From positions 76,131 through 140,130 of the forward strand of contig JAADHN010000166.1 of the NCBI GenBank assembly GCA_013151865.1: 64,000 nt of DNA, given 5' to 3'. The notes under the pieces are model-generated. The model was not told the DNA's origin. It did not search any database and was given only the letters and a program-made list of their open reading frames with translations. The translations under genes were made by a program, and so were the position numbers. The DNA comes from Kiritimatiellota bacterium. GTDB taxonomy: Bacteria > Verrucomicrobiota > Lentisphaeria > Oligosphaerales > JAADHN01. Below are positions 26,529-34,517 of the stretch, in pieces; positions within the stretch are counted from its first letter, which is position 1, and each line of letters begins with the position of its first letter.

Positions 26529-28061
26529 TCAGACCGACGACTGCCGGGAACGGTAGCGGCGGGTGTCGATGCCGTACTTGCGGATCTTGTATTGAATCAC
26601 ACGCTTGGTGAGCCCGAGACGCCGGGCTGCCACGGTCTGGTTCCCGCCGGAATCCTTGAGCGCCTCGGTAATCAGTTCCACCTCCAGGTTCTGCACCCGC
26701 AAAGTGAAATCCCCGTGCACCTCGCTGCGCGGCGCGTACCGGTTCATCTGCAGGGAAGGCGGCAGGTGGCGCCCGTGGATCACGTCTCCGTCGGCCAACA
26801 GTGCCGCCCGCTCGATCACGTTCTCGAGTTCCCGCACATTGCCGGGCCAGTGGTAGGCGGTGAGCATGTCGATGGCCGGCGTATCGATCCGCGTGACCTT
26901 CTTGCCCAATTCCTCGGAGAACCGCAGGATGAAATGGTCCACCAAAAGCATAATGTCCGCCTTGCCCCGTTCACGAAGCGGCGGGACGTGGATGGGAAAC
27001 ACATTCAATCGATAAAACAGGTCGGACCGAAACGTTCCTTCGATCACGGCGGCTTCCAAGTCGCGGTTGGTGGCCGCGATGATCCGCGCGCCGGTCCGCA
27101 GGGTCCGCGACCCGCCCACCCGCTCGAACTCGCGGCTCTGGAGCACCCGAAGCAGCTTGGCCTGGGCCGAAGCCGGCAATTCGCCGATCTCGTCCAGAAA
27201 CACCGTCCCGCCCCGCGCCCGTTCAAGGACCCCGACCCGGCGCTGAACAGCACCGGTGAACGAGCCTTTCTCATGCCCGAACAATTCGCTTTCGATCAGA
27301 GTCTCCGGGATCGCACCACAATTCACCTCGACGAACGGCTGATTGCGCCGGGGCCCAAGCTGGTGAATGAGTTCGGCCACCACGCCTTTGCCGGTCCCTG
27401 TCTCGCCCGTGAGCAGGACCGTCGTGCGGGCGTCCGCAACCCGCACAATCAAGTGCTGAATCTCCTGCATGGCCGGAGAGTTGCCGATCAGCCGCCCGAA
27501 TTCGCCACCGGGCCGGCGGGCGTGATGAAAGACTTCGAGCCGTTCCTCGAGTCGGCGCCGCTGCACGAACGGGGCCAGCAGGTCGGCCACCTCGCGAAGG
27601 AACGCCGTTTCCAGACCAGGGTCGGCGATCTTGGCCCGCTCCTTGTCGGCCGAGAGTGTGCCGATCGACTGGCCGCGGTAGAGGATGGGCACGCAAAAAA
27701 AGGAGACGGACGCCGGGTTGAGGTCGCGACGCAAACCGGAACGGTCGAGAAACTCTCCCTGCTCGAGACTGGCCAGATAAACCGGCTCGCCCGTGGCAAA
27801 AACCCGCCCCGTAATGCCCTCCCCCGCCCGGTACCGCATGCGCACCGAACGCGATGCCGGAATGTCCTCGACCGTGATCCCGGCCTGTACTTCGTCGCCG
27901 GCCTCGGTCATGAGCGCGATGACCCCCCGGCGCAGGGCGAAATCGTCCGAGAGCCACTCGAGCACCCGGCCCAACGCCTGCCGAACGTCTTCGGCAGCGC
28001 CCAGGTGCCGCGCGATCCGCGTCAGAAGCCGCAATTGTTCGTACGAAAAATCGTTCGCCAC
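26529..28061 (-). CDS. NifA-like sigma-54-dependent transcriptional activator (GAF-AAA+-Fis)
   Basis: A sigma-54 enhancer-binding protein with no receiver domain. A GAF sensor (about residues 10-165, containing VPILYRGQSIGTLSADK) precedes the AAA+ domain: Walker A GETGTGKG, sigma-54-contact loop GSFTGA (a Ser variant of GAFTGA), Walker B-like GGTVFLDEIGEL and arginine-finger region FRSDLFYRLNVFPIHVPPLRER. A Fis helix-turn-helix ends the protein (NQTVAARRLGLTKRVIQYKI). The GTG at 28061 is chosen because AGAGGG lies 8 bases upstream and the AT-rich stretch beyond looks intergenic. An ATG at 28190 is an alternative but lacks a ribosome-binding site and would run through the palindrome at 28159. 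It is divergent from gltB and probably controls it. The GAF ligand is unknown. Confidence 0.9.
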   Translation of the reverse strand: MANDFSYEQLRLLTRIARHLGAAEDVRQALGRVLEWLSDDFALRRGVIALMTEAGDEVQAGITVEDIPASRSVRMRYRAGEGITGRVFATGEPVYLASLEQGEFLDRSGLRRDLNPASVSFFCVPILYRGQSIGTLSADKERAKIADPGLETAFLREVADLLAPFVQRRRLEERLEVFHHARRPGGEFGRLIGNSPAMQEIQHLIVRVADARTTVLLTGETGTGKGVVAELIHQLGPRRNQPFVEVNCGAIPETLIESELFGHEKGSFTGAVQRRVGVLERARGGTVFLDEIGELPASAQAKLLRVLQSREFERVGGSRTLRTGARIIAATNRDLEAAVIEGTFRSDLFYRLNVFPIHVPPLRERGKADIMLLVDHFILRFSEELGKKVTRIDTPAIDMLTAYHWPGNVRELENVIERAALLADGDVIHGRHLPPSLQMNRYAPRSEVHGDFTLRVQNLEVELITEALKDSGGNQTVAARRLGLTKRVIQYKIRKYGIDTRRYRSRQSSV

Positions 28062-28158
28062 GCCTCCGGCCCTCTTTTTCTCATTCTCATGTCCCGAACC
28101 CGGGGTGTCCTCCGACGACCGCAACGCCCGGATCGATACCGATGTTTTGTCACATAAA

Positions 28159-28176
28159 TGTATCTTGCGAAATACA
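28159..28176. promoter_or_regulatory. Palindromic operator 1, TGTAT-N8-ATACA
   Basis: The 18-base site TGTATCTTGCGAAATACA lies just upstream of the proposed start of the NifA-like gene and about 178 bases upstream of the -12 element at 28354. It shares 14 of 18 bases with operator 2. Position and symmetry suit an enhancer (UAS) for the adjacent activator. NifA sites are TGT-N10-ACA; here the spacing is N12. Confidence 0.6.
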
Positions 28177-28341
28177 TTTTTGTAGTCCATGCCAAAACAA
28201 AACGAAAAATGTACCTGCAACCTTTCCGGTTCGGACGGAGTCAACAGAAGCAGGGACTCGAATGCAACGTCCTCGACATTCGCATGTTAAACGAACGGGG
28301 CGGCGCGCACGGCCGTCGGTTCCCACGGAAAACAATGGAAC

Positions 28342-28363
28342 GGTATGTATCCTGCTCCATACA
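28342..28363 (+). promoter_or_regulatory. Candidate sigma-54 promoter overlapping palindromic operator 2, upstream of gltB
   Basis: GG at 28342-28343 and GC at 28354-28355 are exactly 10 bases apart (CGGTATG-N4-CTGCT), fitting the -24/-12 spacing of sigma-54 promoters with a partial consensus match. The same bases contain operator 2, TGTATCCTGCTCCATACA (28346-28363). The start of transcription would be near 28367, giving a leader of about 107 bases before gltB. Confidence 0.5.
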
Positions 28364-28474
28364 CCAAGGCCCTAAACCGCCGGGACAGCCCCGGGCGCGG
28401 GACGAACGCGCGCCGGCCCGAAGTCGGTCGCCGGACGTCGCGGCGGGCGTGGAGCGAAACAGGAGAGTCGAGTG

Positions 28475-31400
28475 ATGCAGGGACCGAATCGGACCGAGGC
28501 GGGACCGTCCGGGACACGGCATTTACCGCAGCTTGCCGGCTGCAGCGCGGACGGTTCGCGTCCTGCGCATGGCTTATATGATCCGTCGTTCGAGCACGAC
28601 AGTTGCGGCGTGGGCCTGCTGGTGAACCTGAAGGGTCGGGCGAGCCATCGGTTGGTTGAACAGGCGGTGCGCATCCTGATCAACCTCGAGCACCGCGGCG
28701 CCATCGGCGGCGACGCGACCACGGGCGACGGCGCGGGGTTGTTGGTTCAACTGCCCGACCGACTCTTTCGGGAGTCGACCGGTCTGGAGTTGCCGCCTCC
28801 CGGGGACTATGCGGCGGGAATGGTCTTCCTTCCCACGGACAGAGCGGTCGCGGCGCGCTGCGTGAACTGCATCGAGGCCGCGGTCTCGAGCGAAGGCGCC
28901 CAGGTCATCGGCTGGCGCGACGTGCCGGTGGACTCGACGGGCCTGGGCGCACTCGCCAAAGCCACCGAGCCGGTCTTCCGGCAGGTGTTCGTGGATCGGG
29001 GCGAGATCCCACGCGAGGCGTTCGAGCGCAAACTGTACGTAGTCCGCCGCCAAGTCGAAAAACAGATCTCCGCCTGGACGGACGCGGATGCCGGCCAATT
29101 CTACGTCGCCAGCCTCTCTTCGCGAACGGTGGTTTACAAGGGCATGCTGACCGGGACGCAACTGTTGCGATACTTTCCCGACTTGAAAGACCGGGCCATG
29201 ACCTCCGCCTTTGCTCTGGTTCACCAGCGTTACAGCACGAACACGCTACCTGCCTGGGGATTGGCGCAACCGTTCCGTTACCTGGCCCACAACGGTGAAA
29301 TCAACACGTTGCGGGGCAACATCAACCGCATGCGGGCCAGGGAAGCGGACCTGGCGTCTCCGCTATTCGGCGCGGACATCGGGAAGGTCAAACCGGTGAT
29401 CGTCGAGGGCGGCAGCGACTCCGCCGTGTTCGACAATGTCCTGGAACTGCTGCTTTCCGCGGGTCGATCCCTGCCGCACGCGGTGATGATGATGGTCCCG
29501 GAGGCGTGGGGGGTCCGGTACCACATGAGCCAGGACCGGCGGGCCTTTTACGAGTATCACAGTGCGTTCATGGAGCCGTGGGACGGTCCGGCGGCGCTGG
29601 TCTTCACCGACGGATGCCGCTACATCGGCGGCACACTCGACCGGAACGGTCTCCGACCGTGCCGGTACACCGTCACCCGGGACGGCCTCCTGGTGCTGGC
29701 TTCGGAAAGCGGCGTCCTCGAGCAGCGTCCGGAGAACATCCTCTCGCGCGGGCGTCTGAAACCCGGACGCATGTTGTTGGTGGACATGGAGCAGCACCGG
29801 ATCGTCCCGGACCACGAAATCAAAGCGAAGATCGCCCGTTCAAAGCCGTACCGGCACTGGGTTATCGAGAACCGGATCGAACTGCGCGGGCTGCACAGTC
29901 CGCCGGAATTGCCCCCGGTCGAGCCGGCCCGTCTGCTGCATCTGCAGCAGGCCTTCGGCTACACCGATGAAGAGCTGAAACACATCCTCGGACCGATGGC
30001 GGACCGGGGTCAGGAGCCGGTGGGGTCGATGGGCAACGACGAGCCACTCGCCGTGCTCTCCAAACGGCCCCAGTTGCTCTACACGTACTTCAAGCAATTG
30101 TTCGCACAGGTAACCAACCCGCCCATCGACCCGCTCCGGGAAGAACTGGTCATGTCCCTGATGAGTTTTGTAGGACGCGAGCGCAATCTCTTGGACGAAA
30201 CCCCGGAGCACTGCCGCATGCTCAAGTTGCGCTATCCCATCCTGACGCCCGACGATTTGGCCCGTATCCGCCGCTCGAACCGGCCGGACGTGCGCGCGGC
30301 GGATGTTCCCATGCTTTTCCCGGCGGACGGCAACGGCGCGGCGCTTTCAAACGCCCTTGACGCGATGTTCCGTCGGGCCGAAGCGGCCGTGCGCGGCGGT
30401 GCGACTCTGGTGATCCTGACGGACCGTGGCGTGGACGCCGGACGGGCCCCGATCCCGGCGCTGCTGGCCGGGGCGGGGCTCCACCACCACCTGATCCGTT
30501 GCGGACTTCGCACGGCCGCGGGCATCATCGTCGAAAGCGGCGAGCCGCGCGAAGTCATGCACTTCGCCCAACTGCTCGGTTACGGTGTCAATGCGGTGTG
30601 TCCGTATGTGGCTTTGGCCACGGTGCGCGCTCTGGCGGCGGAAGGGCTGATCGAGTCCGGGCGGGACTGGGAGAACGGCCCCGTAGACCAGTACATCGCC
30701 GCCCTGAAAAAGGGCCTTCTGAAGACGTTCAGCCGTATGGGCATTTCGACGGTGCGCAGTTTCCTCGGTTCCCAGATATTCGAGGCGGTCGGTCTGAACG
30801 ATGCGGTCATCGAACGCTACTTCACCCGCACGCCGTCGCGAATCGGCGGGGTCGGCCTGGACGAACTGGCGGCCGAAGCCGTGTTGCGCCACCGCCGGGG
30901 TTTCCCTCGACGGGGCGGCGTACCGCGCCTACTCGAGATCGGCGGTCACTATCGGCTCCGGGCGGACGGCGAACAGCATTTGTGGCGTCCGGAAGCCATT
31001 TTTCACTTTCAGCAGGCGGTTCGGAACGACAGTTGGGAGGATTTCAAGGCGTATACCGTGCTGATGGACGATCAATCGGTCCAGCATCTCACTTTGCGGA
31101 GCCTACTCGAATTCCGCGAAGGGCGGCCGGTGCCCCTGGACGAAGTGGAGCCGGTCGAGAGCATCGTTTCGCGCTTTTTCTCGTCGGCGATGTCGCACGG
31201 ATCCATCAGCAAAGAAGCCCACGAGGCGATTGCGGTCGGCATGAACCGGTGCGGCGGACGGAGCAACAGCGGCGAAGGCGGCGAAGACCCGGACCGATAC
31301 CGTATCCGCCCGAACGGCGACGACCCAAAGTCGAAGGTCAAACAGATCGCCTCGGGCCGATTCGGCGTGACGACCCAGTACGCGATCAATTGCGAAGAAC

Positions 31401-33085
31401 TGCAAATCAAGATTGCTCAGGGCGCCAAACCGGGCGAAGGCGGGCAGCTTCCAGGACACAAGGTTTCCGAAGAGATCGCCCGAATCCGGCACACCACGGC
31501 CGGAGTCACCCTGATATCGCCGCCGCCGCACCATGACATTTATTCCATCGAAGACATCGCTCAACTGATCTACGACCTCAAATGTGTGAACCCGGCGGCG
31601 CGCGTGTCGGTAAAGCTGGTTTCGGAAGTCGGGGTCGGTACGATCGCCGCCGGGGTGGCCAAAGCCCGGGCGGACATGGTCCTGATCGCGGGGTACGACG
31701 GCGGCACGGGCGCTTCGCCGCTCACGGCGATCAAGCACGCGGGTCTGCCGTGGGAACTGGGACTTGCGGAGACGCAGCAGGTTCTCCGCGCCAACGGCCT
31801 GCGAGACGGTATTCGCGTGCAGGTGGACGGCCAGCTTCGCACGGGGCGGGATCTGGCCGTCGCCGCGCTGCTCGGGGCCGAGGAGTTCGGGTTCGCCACG
31901 ATCATGCTGGTCGCCCTCGGCTGTGTGATGATGCGGAAATGTCACCTGAACACCTGTCCCGTGGGGGTGGCGACCCAGGACCCGCGGCTGCGGGCGCGGT
32001 TCGCGGGCAGGCCCGAATACATTGTTCGGTTCATGCGGTTCATCGCCGAAGACTTGCGGCGGCATATGGCCGGCTTGGGATTCCGCACGGTGGACGAGAT
32101 GGTGGGCCGAGCCGACCGACTCGAATTCCGCCGGGCGGTGGACCATTGGAAGAGCCGGGGCGTGGATCTGTCCCGACTGCTCGCTCCGCTCACGGCGGAC
32201 AACGACCTCCCCCGCCGCTGCCTGCGGGACGGATGGCGGCAACCGGTGCGCTGCTTCGACGACCGGTTGCTCCGCAAGACCGAGGGCGCCTTGGAGCGCG
32301 GCGCCTCCGTGCGGATCGAGACCACGGTGCGCAATGTGAACCGAACGATCGGGGCCCGACTCAGCGGGGAAATCGTCCGCCGTCATGGTCCGGGCGGACT
32401 GGTGGACGATACCGTCGACCTGGTCCTGACGGGCTCCGTGGGGCAGAGCGCCGGCGCTTTTCTCGCCCCCGGCGTTTCGATCCGTATCGAAGGGGACGCC
32501 AACGACTATGTCGGCAAGAGCATGTCGGGCGGCCGCATCGTCATCGTACCGCCGGCCGGGGCGGAATTCATCCCCCACGACAATGTCATCATCGGCAACG
32601 TGGCCCTGTACGGCGCCACCGGCGGCGAAATGTTCGTGAACGGAATGGCGGGGGAACGGTTCGCCATCCGCAACAGCGGCGCGGTGGCGGTGGTCGAAGG
32701 CGTGGGCGACCACGGGTGCGAATACATGACCGGGGGGACCGTGGTGGTACTGGGGCGGACGGGCAACAACTTCGCTGCAGGCATGAGCGGGGGCGTGGCC
32801 TACGTTTATGACGAGACCGGCCTGTTCGATACACGCTGCAACCTCGACATGGTGGACGTGGAAACCGTTTATGCCCGGGAAGACCTCGGCGTCTTGCGGC
32901 GTCTGATCGACCGGCATTGCAGGTATACCGGCAGCGAGCGGGCCCGGATAATCCTCGATCATTGGGACGCCCATATCCCGTATTTCGTCAAAGTCATGCC
33001 GATCGACTACCGGCGTGCGCTTCAGCGGATGCGGGAACAGGTCCATCGCGAAGACGAAACGGTTTCGGCCACCGAGGAGGTGTGA
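28475..33085 (+). CDS. gltB: Glutamate synthase large subunit
   Basis: GltB makes glutamate from glutamine and 2-oxoglutarate. The 1536-residue protein has an N-terminal class II glutamine amidotransferase whose nucleophile should be Cys44 in HDSCGVGLLVNLKG, so a 43-residue propeptide is expected to be removed. Central and FMN domains follow (SGEGGEDPDRY; GYDGGTGASPLTAIKHAGLPW). The 3Fe-4S ligands are Cys1150, Cys1156 and Cys1161 in CVMMRKCHLNTCPVGVATQD, and a C-terminal GXGXG domain is present (MSGGRIVIVPP, GATGGEMFVNGMAGERF). AGGAG lies 9 bases before the ATG at 28475. It is the first gene of the long plus-strand cluster and lies next to the divergent sigma-54 activator. Confidence 0.97.
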   Translation: MQGPNRTEAGPSGTRHLPQLAGCSADGSRPAHGLYDPSFEHDSCGVGLLVNLKGRASHRLVEQAVRILINLEHRGAIGGDATTGDGAGLLVQLPDRLFRESTGLELPPPGDYAAGMVFLPTDRAVAARCVNCIEAAVSSEGAQVIGWRDVPVDSTGLGALAKATEPVFRQVFVDRGEIPREAFERKLYVVRRQVEKQISAWTDADAGQFYVASLSSRTVVYKGMLTGTQLLRYFPDLKDRAMTSAFALVHQRYSTNTLPAWGLAQPFRYLAHNGEINTLRGNINRMRAREADLASPLFGADIGKVKPVIVEGGSDSAVFDNVLELLLSAGRSLPHAVMMMVPEAWGVRYHMSQDRRAFYEYHSAFMEPWDGPAALVFTDGCRYIGGTLDRNGLRPCRYTVTRDGLLVLASESGVLEQRPENILSRGRLKPGRMLLVDMEQHRIVPDHEIKAKIARSKPYRHWVIENRIELRGLHSPPELPPVEPARLLHLQQAFGYTDEELKHILGPMADRGQEPVGSMGNDEPLAVLSKRPQLLYTYFKQLFAQVTNPPIDPLREELVMSLMSFVGRERNLLDETPEHCRMLKLRYPILTPDDLARIRRSNRPDVRAADVPMLFPADGNGAALSNALDAMFRRAEAAVRGGATLVILTDRGVDAGRAPIPALLAGAGLHHHLIRCGLRTAAGIIVESGEPREVMHFAQLLGYGVNAVCPYVALATVRALAAEGLIESGRDWENGPVDQYIAALKKGLLKTFSRMGISTVRSFLGSQIFEAVGLNDAVIERYFTRTPSRIGGVGLDELAAEAVLRHRRGFPRRGGVPRLLEIGGHYRLRADGEQHLWRPEAIFHFQQAVRNDSWEDFKAYTVLMDDQSVQHLTLRSLLEFREGRPVPLDEVEPVESIVSRFFSSAMSHGSISKEAHEAIAVGMNRCGGRSNSGEGGEDPDRYRIRPNGDDPKSKVKQIASGRFGVTTQYAINCEELQIKIAQGAKPGEGGQLPGHKVSEEIARIRHTTAGVTLISPPPHHDIYSIEDIAQLIYDLKCVNPAARVSVKLVSEVGVGTIAAGVAKARADMVLIAGYDGGTGASPLTAIKHAGLPWELGLAETQQVLRANGLRDGIRVQVDGQLRTGRDLAVAALLGAEEFGFATIMLVALGCVMMRKCHLNTCPVGVATQDPRLRARFAGRPEYIVRFMRFIAEDLRRHMAGLGFRTVDEMVGRADRLEFRRAVDHWKSRGVDLSRLLAPLTADNDLPRRCLRDGWRQPVRCFDDRLLRKTEGALERGASVRIETTVRNVNRTIGARLSGEIVRRHGPGGLVDDTVDLVLTGSVGQSAGAFLAPGVSIRIEGDANDYVGKSMSGGRIVIVPPAGAEFIPHDNVIIGNVALYGATGGEMFVNGMAGERFAIRNSGAVAVVEGVGDHGCEYMTGGTVVVLGRTGNNFAAGMSGGVAYVYDETGLFDTRCNLDMVDVETVYAREDLGVLRRLIDRHCRYTGSERARIILDHWDAHIPYFVKVMPIDYRRALQRMREQVHREDETVSATEEV

Positions 33086-33089
33086 TCTC

Positions 33090-34517
33090 ATGGGTAAACC
33101 GACCGGGTTCCTCGAATACGAGCGGGTGGATCCCCCGAAACGCCCGAAAACGGAACGTGTGCGCGACTTCGCGGAAGTCGAACTCCCCCTGGACCCCGAA
33201 CAGTTGCAGATCCAGGCCGCGCGCTGCATGGACTGCGGCATTCCGTTCTGCCACATGTCCGGATGTCCGCTCCGGAACGTGATCCCGGACTTCAACGACA
33301 TGGTCTACCGCGGCCAATGGCGCCGGGCCCTCGAGCTGCTGCACAGCACGAACAACTTCCCCGAGATCACCGGACGCATCTGCCCCGCCCCATGCGAGGC
33401 GGCCTGCACGCTGTCGATCAACCAACCGGCCGTAACAATCCGGCAGATCGAACGCCAGATCGTCGAGCGGGGGTGGGAGACGGGCTGGATCGTCCCGGAA
33501 CCGCCGGCGCACCCGAGCGGGCGGCGAGTGGCCGTCGTGGGGTCCGGCCCGGCAGGTTTGGCGGCTGCACAGCAATTAACCCGCGCCGGGCACGAGACCA
33601 CCCTGTTCGAGGCAGACGACCGGGTGGGCGGCACGCTCCGCTACGGCATTCCGGACTTCAAACTGGACAAACGCGTGTTGGATCGGCGCATCGCCCAAAT
33701 GTCGGCCGAGGGCCTGCGGATCGAGACCGGGGTGCGCATCGGCGAGGACATCTCGACCCACTACCTCCGCCGGTCGTTCGACGCGGTGCTGCTGGCAGGC
33801 GGGGCGCGGACCCCGCGCGACCTGCGCATTCCGGGCCGCGACTTGAAAGGCATTCATTTCGCCATGGACTTCCTGACCCAGCAAAACCGCCGGAACGCGG
33901 GGGACGCATTGCCGCCGGGCACGGAGATTCGGGCGGACGGAAAACGAGTTTTGGTCATCGGCGGCGGCGACACCGGCTCCGACTGCGTGGGCACTGCACT
34001 GCGCCAAGGCGCCGTGGATGTTGTCCAGATCGAAATCATGCCCCAACCGCCGGTCGAACGCTCGCCCGACACGCCTTGGCCCTTGTGGCCGCATCAGTTG
34101 CGCACTTCGTCCTCGCACGAGGAAGGCGGGAAGCGTCTTTGGAGCGTTCTCAGCAAGGAATTTGTGGGCGAAAACAACCGTGTGGCCGGCGTACGCGCCG
34201 CTAAAGTCGAGTGGACAAAAGCCCCCACCACTGGACAAATGAGTTTCCGCGAAGTCCCCGGGACGGATTTTCTAATCGAAACGGACCTGATTTTACTGGC
34301 GATGGGCTTTACAAAAGAGGGTAGTGCCGAGATATTGCGGGGGTATGGCGTCGAGGTGGATTGCGCCGGCCGCGTTGTACTCGACGCCGCCGGCATGACG
34401 ACCTTGCCGGGCGTCTTCGTGGCCGGAGACCTGGCCGCGGGCGCGTCGCTGGTGGTTCGCGCCATCGCCGACGGACGCCGAGTTGCCGAGTTGATAGACC
34501 GTTTCCTGGCCGGATGA
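33090..34517 (+). CDS. gltD: Glutamate synthase small subunit
   Basis: GltD passes electrons from NADPH through FAD and iron-sulfur clusters to GltB. The 475-residue protein has the N-terminal cysteine clusters (QAARCMDCGIPFCHMSGCPLRN; GRICPAPCEAACTLSIN), an FAD-binding motif VAVVGSGPAGLAAAQQL and an NADPH-binding motif VLVIGGGDTGSDCVGTALRQ. It begins 4 bases after gltB, with GAGGAGG 9 bases before the ATG at 33090, so the two are translated together. Confidence 0.96.
   Translation: MGKPTGFLEYERVDPPKRPKTERVRDFAEVELPLDPEQLQIQAARCMDCGIPFCHMSGCPLRNVIPDFNDMVYRGQWRRALELLHSTNNFPEITGRICPAPCEAACTLSINQPAVTIRQIERQIVERGWETGWIVPEPPAHPSGRRVAVVGSGPAGLAAAQQLTRAGHETTLFEADDRVGGTLRYGIPDFKLDKRVLDRRIAQMSAEGLRIETGVRIGEDISTHYLRRSFDAVLLAGGARTPRDLRIPGRDLKGIHFAMDFLTQQNRRNAGDALPPGTEIRADGKRVLVIGGGDTGSDCVGTALRQGAVDVVQIEIMPQPPVERSPDTPWPLWPHQLRTSSSHEEGGKRLWSVLSKEFVGENNRVAGVRAAKVEWTKAPTTGQMSFREVPGTDFLIETDLILLAMGFTKEGSAEILRGYGVEVDCAGRVVLDAAGMTTLPGVFVAGDLAAGASLVVRAIADGRRVAELIDRFLAG

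Follow-up and report, generated by a model that had tools for sequence, protein, structure and literature searches.

Known nitrogen regulators and the present locus

In Escherichia coli, the sigma-54 promoter of the glnALG operon is preceded by two strong NtrC enhancer sites, with weak sites nearer to it; NtrC has governor sites at glnA and also regulates itself negatively at sigma-70 promoters (PMC3870243). In Desulfovibrio vulgaris, DVU1949 is described as a one-component sigma-54 activator whose regulon covers several operons for nitrogen metabolism and transport; autoregulation was proposed for it, although its own gene has no conserved sigma-54 promoter nearby (PMC4641369). One motif group of the Desulfovibrio sigma-54 activators consists of TGT and ACA half-sites 12 bp apart, and GSFTGA is counted there as a functional variant of the GAFTGA loop (PMC4641369).

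The locus studied here lies in a stretch of 64,000 nucleotides (the window). The activator gene (26529..28061, minus strand, with a GTG start codon near 28061) encodes a protein of GAF, AAA+ (sigma-54 interaction) and Fis-type HTH domains (Pfam GAF/Sigma54_activat/HTH_8), and it is divergent from gltBD on the plus strand, i.e., gltB for the large subunit of glutamate synthase (28472..33085; NF008730, 1720 bits vs. a cut-off of 1047) and gltD for the small subunit (33090..34517; TIGR01317, 650 bits vs. a cut-off of 448). As in sigma-54 enhancer-binding proteins, PF00158 and PF02954 were both present in the activator, with a GAFTGA-type loop that reads GSFTGA in its sequence. The genome also contains rpoN and several other sigma-54 activators (8 matches).

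By its description, DVU1949, likewise a single-component sigma-54 nitrogen regulator, comes closest among the known regulators. The arrangement between the activator gene and gltB, with two strong upstream sites, weak sites nearer to the promoter and probable negative autoregulation, resembles that of NtrC at glnALG. Unlike NtrC, however, the activator has a GAF domain instead of a receiver domain, and no response-regulator domain was reported by Pfam. The GAF, AAA+ and Fis-HTH layout is common to NifA, and nifA was the best NCBIfam model (TIGR01817), although the score of 447.9 bits was under the cut-off of 528.85; nifH had no match in this genome. None of the site shapes of NifA, NtrC, GlnR and NtcA was found in the intergenic region of the window. 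The NtrC-type GCAC-N7-GTGC was absent there and counted 0 in the relatives, and the NifA-type TGT-N10-ACA was absent from 28065-28471 and not enriched in the relatives (10 vs. 7.2 expected). A GlnR-like shape was mildly enriched in the relatives (3 vs. 0.4 expected, z 4.3).

A conserved element upstream of nitrogen genes

Fourteen orthologs of the activator, at 65-73% identity and with nearly identical recognition helices, were found in the same order. None of the 14 had gltB beside it in the flanks examined, and therefore the regulator's own upstream DNA can be viewed independently of gltB. In the relatives, i.e., genomes of the same order, the DNA preceding gltB, amtB and the activator genes contained ACA-N4-TGT 47 times against 7 expected (z 14.4). 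The longer form G(A/G)TACATT..TGT recurs upstream of the activator orthologs and is rare in these genomes, mostly with 0-3 copies each; in six of them one copy lies at the activator. Unsupervised discovery, by expectation-maximisation from random start positions with shuffled input as the null, yielded GRTACATTTNTGTNNC from the activator upstream set (log-likelihood 102 vs. 33-37 for the null) and, in a separate run, TNTACAATTTTGTAAA from the gltB upstream set (106 vs. 33-44). The two matrices also recognised each other's regions: the activator matrix matched 5 of 22 gltB regions (0.44 expected) and the gltB matrix 8 of 14 activator regions (0.28 expected), while the joint matrix matched 14 of 29 amtB regions (0.58 expected), which were in neither training set.

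Adjacent elements in the upstream regions studied were 29 or 30 bp apart in 15 of 30 pairs, and shuffles gave almost no pairs. The element, here called an upstream activator sequence (UAS), was seen in twos or threes with a spacing of 29-30 bp, about three helix turns, at the amtB loci L217, L222, L223, L224, L229, L237, L241, L245 and L246. Distant homologs in metagenome bins of Deltaproteobacteria, Syntrophus, Spirochaetaceae and Treponema also have the element upstream, in two cases with the 29-30 bp spacing.

A good site was not found upstream of the close orthologs L035, L038, L039 and L044, the last with only 151 bp of upstream sequence, and several gltB and amtB genes of family f8 have strong sigma-54 promoters without a UAS match. 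The f8 activators (44-46% identity) have a different upstream motif, ATGGC...GCCAT, unrelated to ACA-N4-TGT; a common inverted repeat like ATGGC-N6-GCCAT was likewise seen upstream of f8/f9 activators of about 45% identity (L047-L061). The bare core ACAWWWWTGT is not predictive alone, since its genome-wide count in the window's own genome (11) was near that of the reversed control (10); at 8 of those 11 sites no adjacent convincing sigma-54 promoter was found.

A probable UAS array and candidate sigma-54 promoters

When the window was scored with matrices built from the relatives only, the two best matches in the 64 kb, about 6-9 bits above the next, both fell between the activator gene and gltB. 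UAS-A (GATACATTTATGTGAC, 28149..28164, minus strand, 16-19 bits) precedes the start of the activator gene by about 100 bp, a position kept in most orthologs. UAS-B (AATACATTTTTGTAGT, 28171..28186, plus strand, 16-18 bits) lies 22 bp from UAS-A; it was recovered independently by motif discovery on the gltB upstream regions and fits the gltB-derived matrix best. The weak UAS-C (GGTACATTTTTCGTTT, 28200..28215, minus strand, 7-10 bits, rank 4-7 in the window) is 29 bp from UAS-B, which is within the preferred spacing of the relatives, and the 22-bp spacing of two strong UASs was observed in this genome only. Judged from sequence, the region 28149-28215 is a real, conserved and functional-looking sigma-54 enhancer array of a familiar kind.

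In most cases among the relatives, 85-140 bp separate the element from the GG-N10-GC promoter of gltB or amtB downstream of it. The candidate sigma-54 promoter of gltB in the window, ACGGTATGTATCCTGCT (GG-N10-GC; 28340..28356, plus strand), with a start expected near 28367, was the best in 28187-28471 (best-in-region shuffle P = 0.023). It is weak: a matrix made from gltB promoters of the relatives gives it 5.5 bits, against 14-22 bits for most of those promoters themselves, and its distance of 163-185 bp to the UASs exceeds the usual one. The relatives, and in this genome amtB, have sites some 100 bp ahead of GG-N10-GC promoters. The best UAS match in the whole genome, GATACATAATTGTATC, precedes an operon that contains a porin-like gene and amtB; a second, weaker UAS follows after 30 bp, and TTGGCAACCAAACTGCA lies 98 bp downstream of the second. 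In the locus L206:1501-3016 (contig C155, near 26704) the porin-like gene is seen to begin this operon, with the UAS doubled at 30 bp. In genome G006, a single array is common to a divergent activator and amtB, on the same plan as activator and gltB in the window.

With a probability of roughly 0.8, these observations are best explained by a UAS array of the divergent NifA-like regulator that activates gltBD, serves amtB and probably represses the regulator's own gene. The region 28149-28215 would consist of two strong and one weak 16-bp UASs with the consensus GRTACATTTNTGTNNC and an ACA-N4-TGT core, to which the divergently encoded nitrogen-assimilation regulator probably binds as dimers. 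From there, a DNA loop would bring it into contact with the sigma-54 RNA polymerase on the weak promoter 28340-28356, and nitrogen shortage would then lead to activation of gltBD. The amtB operon, with the genome's best UAS, would be served by the same regulator. The array may also tune transcription of the regulator itself, probably by repression, since in the relatives the element coincides with its sigma-70-like promoter. Against this reading stand the weak match and unusual distance of the gltB promoter, the orthologs and f8 genes without a UAS, the different motif of the f8 activators, the poor sigma-70 match at UAS-A in the window (see below) and the chance that another Fis-type activator is the binder.

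The two palindromes

An earlier note on this DNA had read the region as two matching palindromes, TGTAT-N8-ATACA, recognised by the activator. Palindrome 1, TGTATCTTGCGAAATACA (28159-28176), and palindrome 2, TGTATCCTGCTCCATACA (28346-28363), do lie exactly where it placed them, with 14 of 18 bases identical and centres 187 bp apart; the spacer between GG (28342-28343) and GC (28354-28355), which palindrome 2 overlaps, is exactly 10 bases, and the setting is AT-rich (33% G+C in 28140-28220 vs. 63% in the window). No other TGTAT-N8-ATACA with up to one mismatch occurs in the window (0.11 expected), and the two exact copies in the 6.2-Mb genome are both at this locus (1 for the reversed-pattern control). 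However, as a recognised unit the motif was not supported: none of the relatives examined carried it ahead of the activator gene, gltB or amtB, its class TGT-N12-ACA was not enriched in them (z -0.9), and a scan of 60 genomes gave no orthologous occurrence, an outcome which the note itself had named as refuting. On that scan and the upstream regions, TGTAT-N8-ATACA was rejected as a conserved motif. By their coordinates, UAS-A and UAS-B, with their distance of 22 bp, turn their inner half-sites towards one another, and these halves together read TGTAT-N8-ATACA; palindrome 1 is a by-product of this arrangement. Two facing sites can thus make a true enhancer array look like a wrong palindrome. 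The proposal that the first site is an enhancer survives in that it falls within the UAS array of a sigma-54 activator, beside the activator gene and upstream of gltB; its motif was misread.

Palindrome 2 repeats the TGTATC-N6-NATACA geometry in which the inner halves of the two strong UASs face each other, and the outer halves are missing. A match to palindrome 1 of 14/18 or better arose in 28187-28471 in 0.05% of dinucleotide shuffles (P = 5e-4, the test being post hoc), and chance is an unlikely source of the resemblance; a coincidence is nevertheless possible. It is very unlikely that the activator recognises TGTAT-N8-ATACA as such, with palindrome 1 as the enhancer and palindrome 2 as a second true site occluding the gltB promoter. 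Such recognition would agree with two exact, genome-unique copies close together, with their resemblance, and with the TGT and ACA half-sites 12 bp apart known in Desulfovibrio (PMC4641369). However, relatives with a nearly identical recognition helix lack the motif at the same genes, its class is not enriched, and the two UASs account fully for palindrome 1. Occlusion of the candidate gltB promoter by palindrome 2 is in itself a possibility. Palindrome 2 could also be a weak extra contact, through inner half-sites only, which limits gltB at a high activator level in a governor-like manner. This is compatible with the UAS array reading and draws on the shared geometry, on the low chance of such a resemblance and on the NtrC governor sites at glnA (PMC3870243), and a low-affinity contact restraining gltB is possible, yet doubtful: as an ACA-N4-TGT UAS, palindrome 2 scored below zero with the relatives' matrices, and among 40 strong sigma-54 promoters in the relatives none carried the palindrome and 35 lacked even one half-site nearby (5/40 had one). 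The relatives used in judging its conservation lie outside the genus and family of this genome, and therefore a recent, local function is still conceivable.

Probable autoregulation and the likely binder

Recurrence of an element upstream of a regulator's own gene is the usual signature of autoregulation. The orientation of the element is the same at nearly all activator orthologs, and in 6 of 9 genomes, where 0.35 would be expected, its TACATT is preceded by a TTG at a distance of 16-17 bp; for these reasons the element appears to hold the -10 box of a sigma-70-type promoter. Occupation of this site would be expected to shut off the activator gene, in the way that E. coli NtrC acts on the sigma-70 promoters of its own operon (PMC3870243). 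At UAS-A in the window, a TTG at the -35 position was not found, the -35 match being poor, and a scan of 28060-28480 for a consensus sigma-70 promoter and a terminator gave nothing. Autorepression, which the earlier note had suggested for the gltB promoter, is likely; the sigma-70-like promoter of the activator gene has better support as its place than the gltB promoter.

Two further explanations concern what the array serves and what binds it. It is rather unlikely that the array serves the activator's own gene only, with gltB on an unrelated promoter and the position of the array incidental to it. Most relatives do retain the element at the activator gene without an adjoining gltB, and the sigma-54 match of gltB in the window is weak. 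On the other hand, gltB elsewhere in the order has its own UAS upstream of strong sigma-54 promoters, so that loss of UAS control at this gltB would be an exception, and UAS-B is the site that best fits the gltB-derived matrix. That the ACA-N4-TGT sites are bound by a different protein, for instance a repressor or a further sigma-54 activator of the Fis type, appears improbable. The genome has several other sigma-54 activators, and f8 genomes retain sites even where the activator has diverged; however, most orthologs carry the element ahead of their own gene, as do distant homologs in other phyla.

Wider occurrence and further observations

Little is known about how nitrogen is regulated in phyla with few cultivated members. 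In the literature searched, no report of ACA-N4-TGT for a nitrogen regulator was found. A more far-reaching reading is put forward tentatively and with less than even confidence: ACA-N4-TGT doubled at 29-30 bp may be the operator of a widespread, undescribed GAF-type class of sigma-54 activators that replaces NtrC in the nitrogen assimilation of several phyla, and the doubled operator may supply the -35 and -10 boxes of the regulator's own promoter (TTGTNN-N16/17-TACATT). If this were true, one DNA unit would act as enhancer at the targets and as off-switch at the regulator's own gene. Because the operator is defined and its double spacing fixed, members of the regulon can be looked for in any genome of these groups, and binding can be tested directly.

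Some further sites and homologs were observed. A strong UAS match, GGTACAAATTTGTATG (18.8 bits), lies at a contig end beside a large ORF in the window's own genome (L252:1498-1513, contig C115); a sigma-54 promoter was looked for at this site and not found. A metagenome bin labelled Holophagaceae contains an activator of 61% identity (L092:6001-7524), far nearer than those of other named genomes, which could possibly be caused by transfer or by a binning error. In G017, the ACA-N4-TGT element also precedes nifE, a further likeness to NifA, with a good sigma-54 promoter between as read from the displayed frame; at this locus (L064:1498-1750, contig C379) GGTACATTTTTGTGATACC lies about 220 bp upstream of the nifE-like gene, with the sigma-54-like promoter between them. 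The same genome also encodes nifH and a second NifA-like gene.
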